Shown: positions 22,883-28,867 of the stretch, in pieces
Layout: the number at the start of each line of letters is the position of its first letter
Numbering within the stretch: position 1 is the stretch's first letter
NCBI RefSeq assembly: GCF_000336675.1
Contig: NZ_AOMB01000032.1
Coordinates: 1-64,000 of the forward strand
Origin: Halococcus hamelinensis 100A6
GTDB taxonomy: Archaea > Halobacteriota > Halobacteria > Halobacteriales > Halococcaceae
Length of the DNA stretch: 64,000 bases
Direction: 5' to 3'
Program-made: the position numbers and the translations under genes
Notes under the pieces: generated by a model
What the model was told of the DNA's origin: nothing
The model's input: only the letters and a program-made list of their open reading frames with translations
Databases searched by the model: none

Positions 22883-25333
22883 TCACTCGATGGTGAACGT
22901 GTCGGGGTCGCTCGCGACCTCGCTGACCCGGACCGCCGCCACGGTCCCCGCGACGTCGTGAACCCGCACGATGTCGGCACCGCGTTCGGCGGCCACCGCG
23001 CTCGCCGCCACCGTCGCCTGGAGGCGCTCGTCGGCGTCGCGCCCCACGAGGTCGAACATCGACTTGTGGGAGTGGCCGAACAGGACCGGACAGCCGAGCG
23101 CACGGAACTCGCCGAGCCGTCCGAGCATTGCGAAGCTTTCGCGACGGTCCTTCCCGAAGCCGACCCCCGGGTCGACGATGACGTTCTCGCGGTCGATACC
23201 CGCCCGTTCGGCGACGAGGACGGTCTCGCGGAGTTCGCGGAGCGTGTCCGCGACCACGTCGTCGTAGTCGACCTCGGTTCCGGGGTCGACCGGGGCGTCG
23301 ATGCTGTGCATCACCACCACCGGGCAGTCGTACTCCGCGACCACGAACCGCATCTCGGGGTCGGCGAGCCCCGAGACGTCGTTCACGATGTCCGCACCGG
23401 CGTCGAGCGCCGCCCGCGCCACCGCGGCCTTCCGGGTGTCTATCGAGACCATGACATCGAGGTCCGCGAGGCGTTCGATGACGGGCACCACCCGGTCACA
23501 CTCGTCGGCGACCGGGACCTCGTCCGCGCCGGGTCGGGTGCTCTCGCCGCCGACGTCGACGATGTCCACGTCGTCCGCCATCATCTCCTCGGCGCGCGCG
23601 ACGGCGCGCTCGGTGGTCTCGAACTCGCCGCCGTCGTGGAAGCTGTCGGGGGTGACGTTCAAGATTCCCATCACCGCCGTTCGGTCGTCCCACGGGTAGC
23701 CCCGGTCCCGGTCCCCGTCATCGAGCGAGAGCGCCGACGAGATCCCGTCGGCCAGCGGTCCGAGGCCGTAGGGCTGGGCGTCGAGCTTCCGGGTGAGCCG
23801 CTTGAACTGCGCGAGGGTGCCCATCAGGAGGACGTCGAGGAACTCCTCGTCCTGGTCGTTGAGCCCCGAGATCGCACACTCGCCACCGAGCGAGAGGAGC
23901 TCCTCCTTCAGGTACTGGGCCTGCCGCGGTCGAACACGGGTCTTCAGAGTTCGATGGACGGCTTTCCCGCGCATCCGGTAGACGCCGGGTTCGGTGACGT
24001 GGGCCTCCCGGAGCGCCTGCCGGGCGTCGGCCACGTCGTCGACGGCTTTGGGAACGTCGAGCCGGCTCCAGCGGGTTCTGGCCTCCCGGACGGTGTAGAG
24101 CGAGCCACAGACCAGCACGCAGTCGTCGGGGTCCGCCCGCGCGAGCGCGTTCGCGAGCGCGTCGGTGACGTCGCTAGTCGTTTCGACTTCGAGCCCAGTG
24201 ACGTCCTCGACGACCGCCGCGAGCACCGCGTTGTCCTCGGCCCGGTCGATGTCGGGACGGCAGGCCACGACGCTGTCGGGGATCGGGAGCGCCTCGACCA
24301 TCCCCCGGTGGTCCTTGTCGGCGAGCGCGCCGAACACGAGGTGGAGGTCGTCGTAGTCGAACTCGTCCAGCGTCCCCGCGAGCCGCTCGCACGCACCGGG
24401 GTTGTGCGCCCCGTCGAGCACCGCCAGGGGCTCGCGTTCCATGACCTCGAACCGGCCGGGCCAGTGGGCCGTCCGAAGACCGCGTTCGATGGTCTCCGTG
24501 GGAAGGTCGACGTCGAGCGCGGACGAGACCTGCCTCGCGAGCACCGTCGCGACGCCGGCGTTGTCGGCCTGGTGTGTGCCGACCAGCGGAACGGCCGTCT
24601 CGACGCGCCAGTCCGACCCGGACAGCCACACGCGGCTCTCGACCCCCGTTCGGCCGCCGTAGGACACCTCGACGGCCCCGCTATCGCCGACCCGAACCAC
24701 CTCGCCGGCCTGTGCCTCGATCCCCGCGAGCGCGTCGCCGTCGGCGGCGGTCACGAGCCGGCCGTCGGCGGGTGCGACGTGGGCCAGGTCGCGGCCGATC
24801 GCCTCGACGGTGTCGCCGAGGACGTCGGTGTGTTCGAGCGTCACGCTGGTCACCGCGCTCGCGACCGGGTCGGTCACGCTGGTGGCGTCGTAGCGCCCGC
24901 CGATGCCGACTTCGAGGACCGCGACGTCGACCTCGTTTCGCGCGAACGCCCAGAGCGCGAGCCCCGTGACCGCCTCGAAGAAGGTGGGCGATGCCCCCGT
25001 AGCCGCGCGGTCGAGGATATACGGGCGGACGGTCTCGACGTACTCCGTAAGCGCGCGCTCGGTCACTCGGCGGCCGTTTATCCGGATCCGCTCGCGGACC
25101 GAGTCGAGGTGGGGTGAGGTGTAGAGACCGACGTCGAGCCCCGCCTCGCGGAGGACCGATTCGGTCATCCTGGCGGTGCTCCCCTTGCCGTTCGAGCCGG
25201 CGACCTGGACCACGGTCAGGTCCTTGTGGGGGTCGCCGAGGTGGTCGAGCAGGGACTCGGTGGCCGCGAGCCCCGGTCTCGGGGGGTAGCGGCGAAGCCC
25301 GAAGAGGAAGTTCGCCGCGTCGTGGAACTCCAT
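22883..25333 (-). CDS. folCP: FolCP: folylpolyglutamate synthase fused to dihydropteroate synthase
   Basis: 816 residues. Residues 1 to about 425 are folylpolyglutamate/dihydrofolate synthase: VVQVAGSNGKGSTARM (P-loop), LYTSPHLDSVRERI, TFFEAVTGLALWAF, LDGAHNPGACERL. Residues from about 545 are dihydropteroate synthase: MGILNVTPDSFHDGG, VDIVDVGGESTRPGAD, DIVNDVSGL, DPGVGFGKDRRESF, GHSHKSMF. The 120-residue middle carries MRGKAVHRTLKTR. This FolC-FolP fusion is known in haloarchaea and joins the pABA condensation step and glutamylation in one protein. It is the fifth gene downstream of the TatD/UbiA operon, 60 bp after the second TIM-barrel gene, and may be co-transcribed. Confidence 0.95.
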   Translation of the reverse strand: MEFHDAANFLFGLRRYPPRPGLAATESLLDHLGDPHKDLTVVQVAGSNGKGSTARMTESVLREAGLDVGLYTSPHLDSVRERIRINGRRVTERALTEYVETVRPYILDRAATGASPTFFEAVTGLALWAFARNEVDVAVLEVGIGGRYDATSVTDPVASAVTSVTLEHTDVLGDTVEAIGRDLAHVAPADGRLVTAADGDALAGIEAQAGEVVRVGDSGAVEVSYGGRTGVESRVWLSGSDWRVETAVPLVGTHQADNAGVATVLARQVSSALDVDLPTETIERGLRTAHWPGRFEVMEREPLAVLDGAHNPGACERLAGTLDEFDYDDLHLVFGALADKDHRGMVEALPIPDSVVACRPDIDRAEDNAVLAAVVEDVTGLEVETTSDVTDALANALARADPDDCVLVCGSLYTVREARTRWSRLDVPKAVDDVADARQALREAHVTEPGVYRMRGKAVHRTLKTRVRPRQAQYLKEELLSLGGECAISGLNDQDEEFLDVLLMGTLAQFKRLTRKLDAQPYGLGPLADGISSALSLDDGDRDRGYPWDDRTAVMGILNVTPDSFHDGGEFETTERAVARAEEMMADDVDIVDVGGESTRPGADEVPVADECDRVVPVIERLADLDVMVSIDTRKAAVARAALDAGADIVNDVSGLADPEMRFVVAEYDCPVVVMHSIDAPVDPGTEVDYDDVVADTLRELRETVLVAERAGIDRENVIVDPGVGFGKDRRESFAMLGRLGEFRALGCPVLFGHSHKSMFDLVGRDADERLQATVAASAVAAERGADIVRVHDVAGTVAAVRVSEVASDPDTFTIE

Positions 25334-25392: not shown

Positions 25393-26241
25393 CTATCGGA
25401 ACTCGGCGAGCGCTTCGGCGGCCCGGCGCGCGGCCTCGTCGGGGTTCGCGGTGTGGGTGTAGAGTTCGAGCGTGGCGAACCCGTCGTAGCCGACGTCGTC
25501 GAGCGCGTCGAACATCGCCCGGAAGTCGAGGTCGCCGTCGCCCGGCACCAGGTGGTAGTGCTTGCCACGTCGTCCGCCGGCGATGTCTTCGAGGTGGACA
25601 CCCGTGATGTGACCCGCACACTGGCGGATCGCCTCGGCCGGGTCCTCGCCGTAGACCGCCGCGTGGCCCAGGTCGAGGTTGACGCCGAGCGAATCCCGGC
25701 CCACGTCGCCGATCAGCGCGAGGACTTCGTCGGTACACTCGACGAGGAGTTCGGGTTCGTACTCGATCCCGACCCGGACGTCGTGTTCCTCGGCGTGGTC
25801 GAGGATCGTGTGGAGCGAGTTCTCGAGATACTCGTGGGCTTGTTCCGGCGGGTTGTTGGCGAGCGGGCGGCCGGTGCCGACGCTGACCGCGGGCGCGTCC
25901 ACGGCGTCGGCGAACTCGATGGCGCGTTTCGTGTACTCGATCCGCCACTCGCGGTCCTCGTCGTCGGCGGTGACGATGCTCGGGTCGAAGAACGAGGACG
26001 GCGGCGCGTCGTCGTAGTAGCCCGTCGCGGTGTTGGCGTTGACGCTCGACACGTCCAATCCCGTGTCGTCGAGCGCCGCGAGCGTTGCCTCGCGGTCGCG
26101 TTCGGAGAACTCGGGGAAGAAGGCGTGCGGCGTGTCGGCGAGGAGTTCGACGCCGTCGTAGCCGTGGCCGGCGATGCGGTCGATCGCTTCGGGGAGCGGG
26201 TGGCGGGTGTAGGCGTTCGTCGAGAACGCGAGGTCGACCAT
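25393..26241 (-). CDS. Sugar phosphate isomerase/epimerase-type TIM barrel, copy 1 (EboE-like context)
   Basis: 282 residues, full-length xylose-isomerase-like/AP-endonuclease-2 fold. Visible metal and substrate motifs: FSTNAYTRHPLPEAIDRI and GYDGVELLAD at the start, RVGIEYEPELLVE (Glu), LGVNLDLGHAAVYGED (Asp, His), and HITGVHLEDIAGGRRGKHYHLVPGDGDLDF. It is a diverged paralogue of the TIM barrel at 27205-28035 in the same operon, and the UbiA gene lies between them. Related proteins isomerise sugars or inositols or cleave endonucleolytic AP sites. The company of UbiA and TatD genes suggests a role like EboE, whose reaction is not known. Confidence 0.82.
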   Translation of the reverse strand: MVDLAFSTNAYTRHPLPEAIDRIAGHGYDGVELLADTPHAFFPEFSERDREATLAALDDTGLDVSSVNANTATGYYDDAPPSSFFDPSIVTADDEDREWRIEYTKRAIEFADAVDAPAVSVGTGRPLANNPPEQAHEYLENSLHTILDHAEEHDVRVGIEYEPELLVECTDEVLALIGDVGRDSLGVNLDLGHAAVYGEDPAEAIRQCAGHITGVHLEDIAGGRRGKHYHLVPGDGDLDFRAMFDALDDVGYDGFATLELYTHTANPDEAARRAAEALAEFR

Positions 26242-26290
26242 GGTCCCACGACGGCCGTGGTCTTCAAACGCCTTCCGAGACGGACACGAC

Positions 26291-27214
26291 CTACGAGACG
26301 TCGAACAGTCGCGAGAACCCGACGGCCGGCACCAGAAACGCGAACGCGACGAGCGCCCACGGAACCCCCGCGACCGCCGCGAACGCCGCGTCGAGGACGA
26401 CGAGCGCGAGCACGCAGGTCCCGACCGCCGGGCCGACGGTGTCCGGTCGGGGTGTCGCGTAGGCCTCCCCGATCGCCCGTCCGGTCCACGCGAAGAAGCC
26501 GGCGACGAGCGCGACCGCGAGGAGGGTCTCGACGAGCGGCGGCCGAACGACCCCGACCAGCGCGAAAACCGCGGCCCCGCCGAGAACGACCCCGCCCGCC
26601 GCGCCCGCTACGACGCCCCGCTCGGTGGTGGTGGCCTCGTTCGCCGCCATCCTCGTGACGAGCGCGATGTAGACGACCACGACCAGCGGGACGAACACGA
26701 CCCAGGTCGGTAGCCGAAAGCCGCCCGCTGCGAATCCGAGTACGACATCGAGGCCGCGTGCGACCCCCATCGCGAGGAAACCAACACCAGTTCCCTTCAG
26801 CCAGCCGTCGTAGGCGAGCACGACGCCGGCGAGCGCCGCGGCGACCAGTCCAGCCCGCGGACCGGCTGCGAGAAAGCCGACGAGAACCCCGGCCACGAGC
26901 AAGCCACCGCCGAGCGCGCCCGCCCGCGACCGCGGGACCCGTCCGCTGGGGATCGGGCGCTCGGGGCGTTCCCGCGAATCGACCGGCGCGTCGAAGTAGT
27001 CGTTGAGCGTCGTCCCGCCGGCATACAGGAGGACCGAAGCGACTGCGAGGCCGGCGAGCGCCGGTATCGACACCGCCCCGCCGCTCGCGGCGACGAGCGC
27101 CGCGCCGAGCATCACGTCGGGCGGGGCGCTGAAGAGGTTCGGCAGCCGGACCAGACTCGCGTAGGCCTCGAACCGGTCCCGAAGGTCGCCGCGCGCCACC
27201 CCTCTCAGGCCCAC
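26291..27214 (-). CDS. UbiA-family prenyltransferase (EboC-like)
   Basis: 307 residues, about eight membrane helices. The first Asp-rich motif LNDYFDAPVDSRERPERPIPSG (NDxxDxxxD, about residues 70-92) is intact and binds prenyl diphosphate through magnesium. The second is only partly kept (AYDGWLKGTGVGFLAMGVARGLDVVLG). The enzyme would attach a polyprenyl chain to an unknown acceptor in the membrane. Its 5' end overlaps the preceding TIM-barrel gene by ten bases. Together with TatD and TIM-barrel genes this matches the eboB-eboC-eboE families; a menaquinone or haem prenyltransferase would normally have different neighbours. Confidence 0.85.
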   Translation of the reverse strand: MGLRGVARGDLRDRFEAYASLVRLPNLFSAPPDVMLGAALVAASGGAVSIPALAGLAVASVLLYAGGTTLNDYFDAPVDSRERPERPIPSGRVPRSRAGALGGGLLVAGVLVGFLAAGPRAGLVAAALAGVVLAYDGWLKGTGVGFLAMGVARGLDVVLGFAAGGFRLPTWVVFVPLVVVVYIALVTRMAANEATTTERGVVAGAAGGVVLGGAAVFALVGVVRPPLVETLLAVALVAGFFAWTGRAIGEAYATPRPDTVGPAVGTCVLALVVLDAAFAAVAGVPWALVAFAFLVPAVGFSRLFDVS

Positions 27215-28035
27215 CCGTGGGTTTCGAGGTAGGCCATCGCGTCCTCGACCGTCTCTGCCGCCGTCTCCTCGTAGGGGTAGAGTTCGACCGTCACGAATTC
27301 CTCGTACCCCGCGTCGTCGAGCGCACCGAGGAAGCCGTCGATGTCCATCGCGCCCTCGCCGAGCTGGGTGTGTTCGTGCCGGCGGTCCTCGGGAATGTCC
27401 TCGAGGTGGACGTGGTCGACGTACTCCGAGAGGGTCTCGTACGCCGCGACCGGGTCCTCGCCCACGCTGAAGAGGTGGCCCGCGTCGAAGTTACAGCGAA
27501 CCTGTGGATGACTGATCCGCTCGACGAATTCGAGGTACTCGTCGGCGGTCTCGATCAGGAGGTCGGGTTCGGGTTCGACGTGGAGGTCCACACCCACTTC
27601 CTCCGCGACGGGCAGGACTTCTTCGAGGCTCTCGACGAACGTTTCGAGCGCCCACTCGCGGGATTTCTCTTCCGGGATCGGGCCACCTGGCTCGATCGAG
27701 ATGTAGTCGTGGTCGAGCGCCGCCGCGGTCCGGAGCGCGTCCTTCGTGTAGTCGATCCGGCGCTGGCGGTAGTCGGTGTCCGGCTCGATGTAGGAGGGGT
27801 GGTGAAAGCCCTCGATCGCGGTCAGCATGAACGCGTTACAGTTGCTGATCGCGAGGTCGTTCTCGGCGAGGGTTTCTTTGACTCTCTCGACCGTCTCCTC
27901 GTCGGTGTCGGGCGGGTAGAGGTGGGGCCGGTCGAACAGGAGTTCGACCCCGTCGTAACCCGCATCGGCGACGATCTCGATGGTCTCGTAGGGGTCGTAC
28001 TCGCGGAACGCGTTGGCGGAGAACCCGAAGTTCAT
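27205..28035 (-). CDS. Sugar phosphate isomerase/epimerase-type TIM barrel, copy 2 (EboE-like context)
   Basis: 276 residues from the ATG at 28035, which overlaps the TatD stop (ATGA). Motifs parallel copy 1: GFSANAFREYDPYETIEIV, GYDGVELLFDRPH, VDLHVEPEPDLLIETADEYLEFV, VRCNFDAGHLFSVGEDPVAAYE, and HVHLEDIPEDRRHEHTQLGEGAMDIDGFL. The conserved Glu, Asp, His set for the divalent metal is present. Two such paralogues in a single operon suggest either sequential steps or a heteromeric enzyme. Precise substrate unknown. Confidence 0.82.
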   Translation of the reverse strand: MNFGFSANAFREYDPYETIEIVADAGYDGVELLFDRPHLYPPDTDEETVERVKETLAENDLAISNCNAFMLTAIEGFHHPSYIEPDTDYRQRRIDYTKDALRTAAALDHDYISIEPGGPIPEEKSREWALETFVESLEEVLPVAEEVGVDLHVEPEPDLLIETADEYLEFVERISHPQVRCNFDAGHLFSVGEDPVAAYETLSEYVDHVHLEDIPEDRRHEHTQLGEGAMDIDGFLGALDDAGYEEFVTVELYPYEETAAETVEDAMAYLETHGWA

Positions 28036-28835
28036 GGTCGCTCGTAGTCGAAGTTCGGCGACTGGTCGAAAAAGTCGTAGGGGTTGTCGAAGACGACTTT
28101 CTTCACGTCCTCGTGGTCCCAGCCACGGTCGAGCATCTTGTCCCGTGCTTTGGGTACCGCGAGGGGGTCCGAGGGATCCCAGTCGGCGGCGCTGTTGAAC
28201 AGCATCTTGTCGGTGCCGTACTCTTCGAGGAGGTCGATCGCCGCCTCGTCCTCGATCTTCCCGGGGTAGAGCGTGAAGCCGACCCAGCAGTCGGTGGTGA
28301 GCGAGGTTTCGATGGTCTCCTCCGTGTTGTGGTCGATCACGATCCGCTCTTGGGTCACGCCCTCGTCCTCGATGACCTCCACGATCCGCTCGGTGCCCGA
28401 GGGTTTGTCGGTGTGTGGGGTGTGGATGATGACCGGGAGCTCGCGCTCGTCGGCCATCCGAAGTTGCTCGCGGAGCGCCCACTCTTCGTCGTCCGTCCCC
28501 TGGTCGAAGCCGATCTCGCCGACCCCGACGACGTTCTCGCGGTCGAGGTACTCGGGGATGCCTTCGAGCACCTCCTCGGCCATCTCGCGGTAGTTGGCCT
28601 CCTTGGGTTCGAGGCCGATGGTCACGTAATGACTCATCCCACCGGCGCGCTCGGCGCGTGCGGTCTCGAAGTCGATGATCTGCTCGAAGTAATCGAAGAA
28701 CGATCCCGCGTGCTCCTTGTCGGTACCGCTCCAGAAGGCGGGTTCGATGCAGCACTCGACGCCGGCCATCCGCGCGCGCTGGTAGTCGTCGGCCGAGCGC
28801 GAGACCATGTGCATGTGCGGGTCGATGATCTCCAT
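28032..28835 (-). CDS. TatD-family metal-dependent hydrolase (EboB-like)
   Basis: 267 residues. Amidohydrolase-superfamily metal ligands are visible: HxH in DPHMHM (residues 7 and 9), Glu in VGVGEIGFDQ, His in VIIHTPH and VIDHNTEET, and a late Asp in FNSAADWDPSD. The protein is diverged from the DNase TatD itself (for instance PAFWSGTDKEHAGSFFDYFEQI), as is typical of EboB proteins. It is the first gene of the operon, with a TATA-like box 28 bp upstream. A hydrolase acting on a prenylated or sugar-linked metabolite is inferred from context only. Confidence 0.8.
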   Translation of the reverse strand: MEIIDPHMHMVSRSADDYQRARMAGVECCIEPAFWSGTDKEHAGSFFDYFEQIIDFETARAERAGGMSHYVTIGLEPKEANYREMAEEVLEGIPEYLDRENVVGVGEIGFDQGTDDEEWALREQLRMADERELPVIIHTPHTDKPSGTERIVEVIEDEGVTQERIVIDHNTEETIETSLTTDCWVGFTLYPGKIEDEAAIDLLEEYGTDKMLFNSAADWDPSDPLAVPKARDKMLDRGWDHEDVKKVVFDNPYDFFDQSPNFDYERP

Positions 28836-28858: not shown

Positions 28859-28867
28859 GTTTATACC
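28859..28867 (-). promoter_or_regulatory. TATA-like box of the TatD-TIM-UbiA-TIM operon
   Basis: The minus strand reads GGTATAAAC with its centre 28 bp upstream of the ATG at 28835, consistent with a leaderless transcript covering the TatD, TIM-barrel, UbiA, TIM-barrel and possibly folCP genes. The remaining 60 bp to the gltX stop show nothing else. Confidence 0.6.

Follow-up and report, generated by a model that had tools for sequence, protein, structure and literature searches.

The stretch of DNA analysed here (hereafter the window: 64,000 nucleotides of Halococcus hamelinensis 100A6, contig NZ_AOMB01000032.1, positions 1 to 64,000) carries four contiguous genes on its minus strand whose products are in part related to those of the ebo clusters known from cyanobacteria, Bacteroidota and eustigmatophyte plastids (PMC5133447, PMC6282210). 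The first gene of the operon encodes a TatD-like metal-dependent hydrolase (28032..28835, 267 aa; TatD_DNase, 66 bits in Pfam) and is followed by genes for a xylose-isomerase-like TIM barrel (TIM1, 27205..28035, 276 aa; AP_endonuc_2, 166 bits), a member of the intramembrane prenyltransferase family UbiA (26291..27214, 307 aa from a GTG; UbiA, 77 bits) and a second xylose-isomerase-like TIM barrel (TIM2, 25393..26241, 282 aa; AP_endonuc_2, 156 bits). TatD and TIM1 overlap by 4 bases (ATGA), and TIM1 and UbiA by 10 bases if UbiA starts at the GTG at 27214; its start could also be the GTG at 27199, in which case a gap of 5 bases would separate the two. UbiA and TIM2 lie 49 bases apart. A TATAAA element on the same strand (28860..28865) ends 24 bases before the ATG of TatD, a spacing that would fit a nearly leaderless haloarchaeal transcript. 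An earlier, sequence-only reading of this DNA had given the layout, including the distance from TIM2 to the downstream folCP gene (59 bases), correctly to within a base or two, and had proposed that the locus represents a reduced archaeal version of the ebo cluster, with TatD as EboB, UbiA as EboC and the TIM barrel as EboE.

By sequence the TatD protein is indeed a relative of EboB. Among plasmid records, the bacterial proteins that match it best belong to the TatD family, are 42-46% identical over the full length and in many cases are encoded next to an EboA-domain gene; identity to bacterial EboB is 43-46%. The signatures EPAFW, NSAADW and HTPH are common to the window protein and bacterial EboB, and the metal ligands H7, H9, E107, H138, H169 and D218 are invariant in an alignment with seven bacterial EboB sequences. 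In the tree of EboB proteins, a 95% branch has both the haloarchaeal and the Nitrososphaeria sequences on one side, where they are joined by a few bacteria of the Planctomycetes-Verrucomicrobia-Chlamydiae (PVC) group, and a single archaeal EboB clade is not rejected (approximately unbiased test, p-AU 0.78). The PVC-group metagenome-assembled genomes (MAGs) on the archaeal side (L147, L149, L131, L136) have EboB without EboA, and in some of these loci a gene for a UbiA or a TIM1-like protein is close by.

The assignment of UbiA as EboC-like likewise finds support, albeit with scores below the curated cut-offs: the protein scores 179 bits (1e-52) against the EboC model (NF035940, cut-off 250) and 171 bits (3e-50) against that of the actinobacterial SCO3242 family (NF045897, cut-off 260), as compared to 71 and 62 bits against archaeal geranylgeranyltransferase-type models and 39 bits against haem O synthase, while MenA is not listed among its profile matches. 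The best profile match is thus not a haem O, menaquinone or geranylgeranylglyceryl phosphate (GGGP) prenyltransferase, the kinship that the sequence-only reading had named as speaking against its proposal. Y64, N71, D72, D75, D79, Y135 and R153 are invariant across 16 aligned UbiA proteins. By our own column matching via the EboC of Aureibacter, Y64 and R153 are the equivalents of Tyr56 and Arg145 of Ubi-297, the EboC of Maribacter, in which a tyrosine replaces the usual substrate arginine (PMC9235831). The archaeal protein thus shares with Ubi-297 the UbiA superfamily, the Asp-rich motif, the tyrosine in place of the usual arginine and an arginine at the R145 position, although overall identity is low (25-27% to the EboC of Aureibacter); the SCO3242-type prenyltransferases of Streptomyces align with 34-37% identity, and for SCO3242 itself we found nothing in the literature beyond one transcriptome study. 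The haloarchaeal proteins form a separate clade in the UbiA tree, but because the paralogues of the window's genome sit on very long branches (one of them, L004, being in the wrong frame), the deep nodes of the tree would allow more than one order of branching among this clade, EboC and SCO3242.

In contrast, neither TIM barrel turned out to be EboE: TIM1 and TIM2 score 30 and 24 bits against the EboE model (cut-off 250), and in a 65-row tree EboE stands apart on its own branch of length 4.3, whereas TIM1 groups with TIM1 of Nitrososphaeria (90/95) and TIM2 with two gammaproteobacterial proteins (86/83). The metal site (E, D, H, E) is kept in all eight aligned TIM proteins. Since the nearest solved relatives of both barrels are MJ1311, sugar 3-epimerases, IolI and AsbF, epimerase, isomerase or dehydratase chemistry is allowed, and TIM1 is likely to be a sugar or cyclitol isomerase, epimerase or dehydratase. 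According to BLAST, the nearest protein of a bacterial cluster to both TIM1 and TIM2 is a TIM barrel of the Streptomyces ebo clusters (S-type TIM), which does not form one clade with either of them in the 65-row tree.

The sequence-only reading had further listed EboF among the missing genes. The genome does, however, encode an EboF-like phosphodiesterase on another contig (C5), where its gene and that of a myo-inositol-1-phosphate synthase (MIPS) together span C5:7678-10235 and overlap by 4 bases. The same two families surfaced in a comparison of the genes around 21 other haloarchaeal UbiA orthologues. Each of these loci has TatD, TIM1 and UbiA, with TIM2 usually next, and a protein of ~405 aa (MIPS according to Pfam) and one of ~450 aa (type I phosphodiesterase) are encoded in 13 and 16 haloarchaeal loci, respectively, mostly upstream and divergently. 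In most haloarchaeal loci the MIPS-EboF pair is the divergent neighbour of TatD, as on the plasmids of Halobaculum and Halocatena, and in Natronococcus sp. CG52 the genes stand in a single row, TatD-TIM1-UbiA-TIM2-MIPS-phosphodiesterase. The pair lies away from TatD in the window's genome and in that of its closest relative (G006) but adjoins it in most other members of the genus, and the split is therefore probably secondary. Five haloarchaeal loci have genes of the FAA (fumarylacetoacetate)-hydrolase family next to the pair or close to TIM2, though not consistently (L097:6945-7661 on G000 contig C5, L068:11593-12330, L073, L075 and L098).

Both partners have their closest well-annotated bacterial kin in Streptomyces. 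The best such matches of MIPS are the MIPS genes of Streptomyces ebo clusters, and the EboF-like protein, which is 31-41% identical to bacterial EboF, finds its best bacterial matches in the phosphodiesterases of the Streptomyces clusters, whose genes adjoin those of EboE or EboA. The closest solved structure to MIPS is an archaeal MIPS, that of Archaeoglobus fulgidus (1U1I), which is matched over the full length (E 7e-90). Equivalents of its K274, K278, K306, K367, D225, D261 and N255 are all retained, the four lysines being residues that we take to be catalytic; the H. hamelinensis enzyme differs from the A. fulgidus one in being tied to genes for EboB, EboC and EboF.

The association between these families is conserved well beyond the genus. 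TatD, TIM1 and UbiA occur together in 26 out of 26 haloarchaeal loci from several families (in one, L072, with an insert between TatD and TIM1), and TIM2 orthologues are found in 25 of them, which bears out the conserved gene order on which the earlier proposal depended. Within a set of 195 haloarchaeal genomes of one order, EboB is present in 22, spread over eight genera and several families although ten are from a single genus. UbiA was found in 21 of these 22 and in no others, the exception being a 72%-complete draft (G008) in which a contig ends at TatD. Full-length EboF is present in exactly the same 22 genomes, with one fragment elsewhere, and MIPS in 20 of the 22 as against 2 of the 173 others. 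The one-sided Fisher p-values for co-occurrence with EboB, which ignore shared ancestry, are 2.8e-27 (UbiA), 1.6e-29 (EboF) and 5.5e-23 (MIPS). In the two genomes with MIPS only, G108 (L200) and G189 (L201, contig C1 near 1744354), the MIPS is distant from any EboB and thus may serve another use; the one in G189 lies among glycosyltransferase-like open reading frames, perhaps for an inositol-bearing glycan. One member of the genus (G007; contigs C1, C26, C8 and C9, loci L057 and L064) has the pathway genes in two copies, each on contigs whose ends lie at the cluster or close to it.

The remaining ebo families were not recovered. EboA is found in none of the 195 genomes, among which no positive control was present, and a profile built here picks up EboA in the majority of bacterial loci and in none of the haloarchaeal neighbourhoods. 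EboD (searched with the Azospirillum protein, again without a positive control) was likewise not found in any of the 195 genomes or in the haloarchaeal neighbourhoods, and EboE has no real match in the 195 genomes, the weak matches being to TIM1 itself. The earlier remark that EboD is missing is incomplete in that the absence of EboD coincides with the presence of MIPS, as in Streptomyces. Since EboA, EboD and EboE were looked for and not found, we do not file the locus as a strict ebo cluster, although with its EboB, EboC-like and EboF-like proteins it would in part work as one does.

The same gene set extends to a second archaeal class. Of 300 Nitrososphaeria genomes, 43 have EboB. On a contig of Nitrosopelagicus the genes TIM2-EboB-TIM1-UbiA-EboF-alcohol dehydrogenase follow closely on one another on the same strand, and a contig of Nitrososphaerales has EboB-TIM1-UbiA-EboF. 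Among 20 further neighbourhoods, 11 have EboB-TIM1-UbiA-EboF in this order and on a single strand, with TIM2 in front in six cases, and the rest have fewer genes, partly through contig ends; soil Nitrososphaeria are without a TIM2 of this type. These operons share with the haloarchaeal ones the same five families, the EboB-TIM1-EboC core order and the lack of EboA, EboD and EboE, and they differ in that MIPS is encoded outside the operon and that the marine forms end with a gene for a zinc alcohol dehydrogenase directly 3' of EboF (L129:12795-13823, L221-L226), a candidate cyclitol or polyol dehydrogenase. Since TIM1 and TIM2 are both found again in marine Nitrososphaeria, the locus is a variant in its own right, with a set of genes peculiar to it, rather than a reduced version. 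In the open-access literature we found no report of ebo in archaea; it is described there in bacteria and algal plastids.

A comparison with bacterial clusters places the archaeal variant further. In Azospirillum, Aureibacter, Mycetohabitans and Salipiger the cluster includes EboD but lacks MIPS, whereas the clusters on Streptomyces plasmids encode MIPS, the SCO3242 prenyltransferase, a sugar phosphate isomerase (the S-type TIM), EboA, TatD, EboE and a phosphodiesterase, and no EboD. Among 81 bacterial loci with an EboB match (the best of a longer list, plus plasmids), EboD is present in 35 and MIPS in 16, but never both, and the S-type TIM occurs in 22, of which 16 have MIPS and none EboD. 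Two gammaproteobacterial MAG clusters (L117, L127) have TIM2 and no EboD, with an ebo-type MIPS, 44-46% identical to that of H. hamelinensis, elsewhere in the genome. With the classical clusters the archaeal variant has in common the EboB, EboC-like and EboF-like proteins, the tight clustering and the patchy distribution, but it lacks EboA, EboD and EboE, in whose stead it has MIPS and two different TIM proteins. Judged by sequence, the nearest kind would be the MIPS-type actinobacterial cluster, in which MIPS also replaces EboD (46% identity; EboF 40%, EboB 45%), and from which the haloarchaeal variant differs in the lack of EboA and EboE, its two own TIM barrels, the frequent arrangement in two divergent units and a UbiA that stays under the SCO3242 cut-off.

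On this basis we consider it reasonably probable (roughly 0.6) that the window encodes four enzymes of a six-gene archaeal variant of the ebo pathway, of which MIPS and the EboF-like protein are encoded on C5, and that its product is prenylated and derived from inositol. The pathway that we infer would start with the conversion of glucose 6-phosphate into inositol 1-phosphate by MIPS, as its complete active site suggests. The phosphate might then be removed or exchanged by the EboF-like enzyme, and the ring epimerised, isomerised or dehydrated by TIM1 and TIM2, which belong to the metal-dependent IolI/epimerase/AsbF superfamily, and further modified by the EboB-like hydrolase. Finally, UbiA could attach an isoprenoid chain in the membrane, in line with its family and motifs. 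The archaeal pathway would thus probably turn a sugar alcohol of the inositol type into a prenylated compound. The end product may be a prenylated cyclitol held in the membrane, or an aromatic derived from one, and it might serve metabolite export, as claimed for the Nostoc ebo cluster, or something else.

Several observations weigh against this reconstruction. Two ebo-bearing haloarchaeal genomes (G087, G193) are without an ebo-type MIPS at E 1e-15, and the Nitrososphaeria operons do not contain MIPS, a distant MIPS-like protein being encoded elsewhere in the two genomes checked. EboA and EboE, found in most bacterial clusters, are missing, and the deep nodes of the UbiA tree would also be compatible with more than one placement of the haloarchaeal proteins. 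No ebo cluster is known to encode an enzyme whose natural substrate has been proven. The sole EboC that has been assayed, Ubi-297, prenylates quinolines and does not prenylate phenols or catechols (PMC9235831), which would seem no direct fit to an inositol-like acceptor.

The supply of inositol could alternatively serve archaetidylinositol or similar lipids, with UbiA acting as a geranylgeranyltransferase of membrane lipids. This we regard as unlikely. Phosphatidylinositol has been tentatively reported in Halobacteria (PMC10704169), MIPS has an archaeal MIPS as its closest solved structure, and the best solved relative of UbiA is digeranylgeranylglyceryl phosphate (DGGGP) synthase (E 3e-9). 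However, the genome encodes further UbiA proteins, including one that resembles DGGGP synthase by sequence, the profile scores of the window's UbiA favour EboC over the archaeal geranylgeranyltransferase-type models, and the co-occurrence of EboB, for which such a route has no use, is as tight as that of MIPS. The product could also be a prenylated redox cofactor for exported oxidoreductases rather than an aid to transport, a reading that seems quite unlikely to us even though genes for Tat-type cupredoxin-glucose/sorbosone dehydrogenases lie in the examined flanks of some nine haloarchaeal loci (L058, L059, L061, L066, L067, L069, L070, L072 and L109). That family is present in all 22 ebo genomes as against 71 of the 173 others, and genes for ScyD/ScyE-family proteins, multicopper oxidases or pyrroloquinoline quinone (PQQ) dehydrogenases are found near some bacterial clusters. 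Yet such dehydrogenases are common among haloarchaea, the count is inflated by kinship, ten of the 22 genomes being from one genus, and the copies in the window's genome are on other contigs (C43, C31, C23 and C8).

The kinship of TatD and UbiA with EboB and EboC would also agree with a strict ebo cluster, in which the window holds eboB, eboE and eboC, the A, D and F genes were lost, and precursors are transported across a membrane as proposed for Nostoc. We consider this very improbable, as the gene content already contradicts it: TIM1 and TIM2 are not EboE, EboF is retained in the genome, and MIPS is found in place of EboD. That the genes are unrelated housekeeping genes brought together by chance, or within one genus, can be set aside for practical purposes; the linkage to folCP is genus-specific, as such a view would have it, but gene order is conserved across haloarchaeal families and in Nitrososphaeria, and the p-values for co-occurrence run from 1e-22 to 1e-29, uncorrected for kinship.

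If the six-gene pathway is as we reconstruct it, ebo-like chemistry extends to archaea, both salt-loving and ammonia-oxidising, with EboB, EboC and EboF as the part that is kept and EboA, EboD and EboE as the part that is dispensable. As ebo clusters are widespread and their product is not known, the archaeal variant is of interest because it suggests the starting sugar: MIPS at the place of EboD lends support to a pathway based on a cyclitol, as in the isoprenoid-cyclitol product proposed for the bacterial clusters (Yurchenko et al., PMC5133447), and suggests that this branch starts from inositol phosphate. More speculatively, and with considerable doubt on our part, the pathway of Halobacteria and Nitrososphaeria may lead to an undescribed prenylated, inositol-derived membrane compound that possibly acts as a redox cofactor for exported oxidoreductases, with the bacterial ebo product as its counterpart on a different cyclitol. 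The question of the substrate has become directly testable in cultured carriers (species of Haloarcula, Halorussus and Halobaculum).

Downstream of TIM2 and on the same strand lies folCP, identified by family matches as a fusion of FolC and dihydropteroate synthase (22883..25333). It was considered as a pathway partner and rejected: it follows TIM2 only inside the genus of the window, and we therefore regard it as a neighbour outside the pathway. Contig C5 further carries, a few kilobases from the MIPS-EboF pair, a carotenoid-type set (L097:24-4234 on G000 contig C5) whose genes, by sequence, encode proteins like phytoene desaturase and phytoene synthase along with a UbiA-type and another membrane protein.

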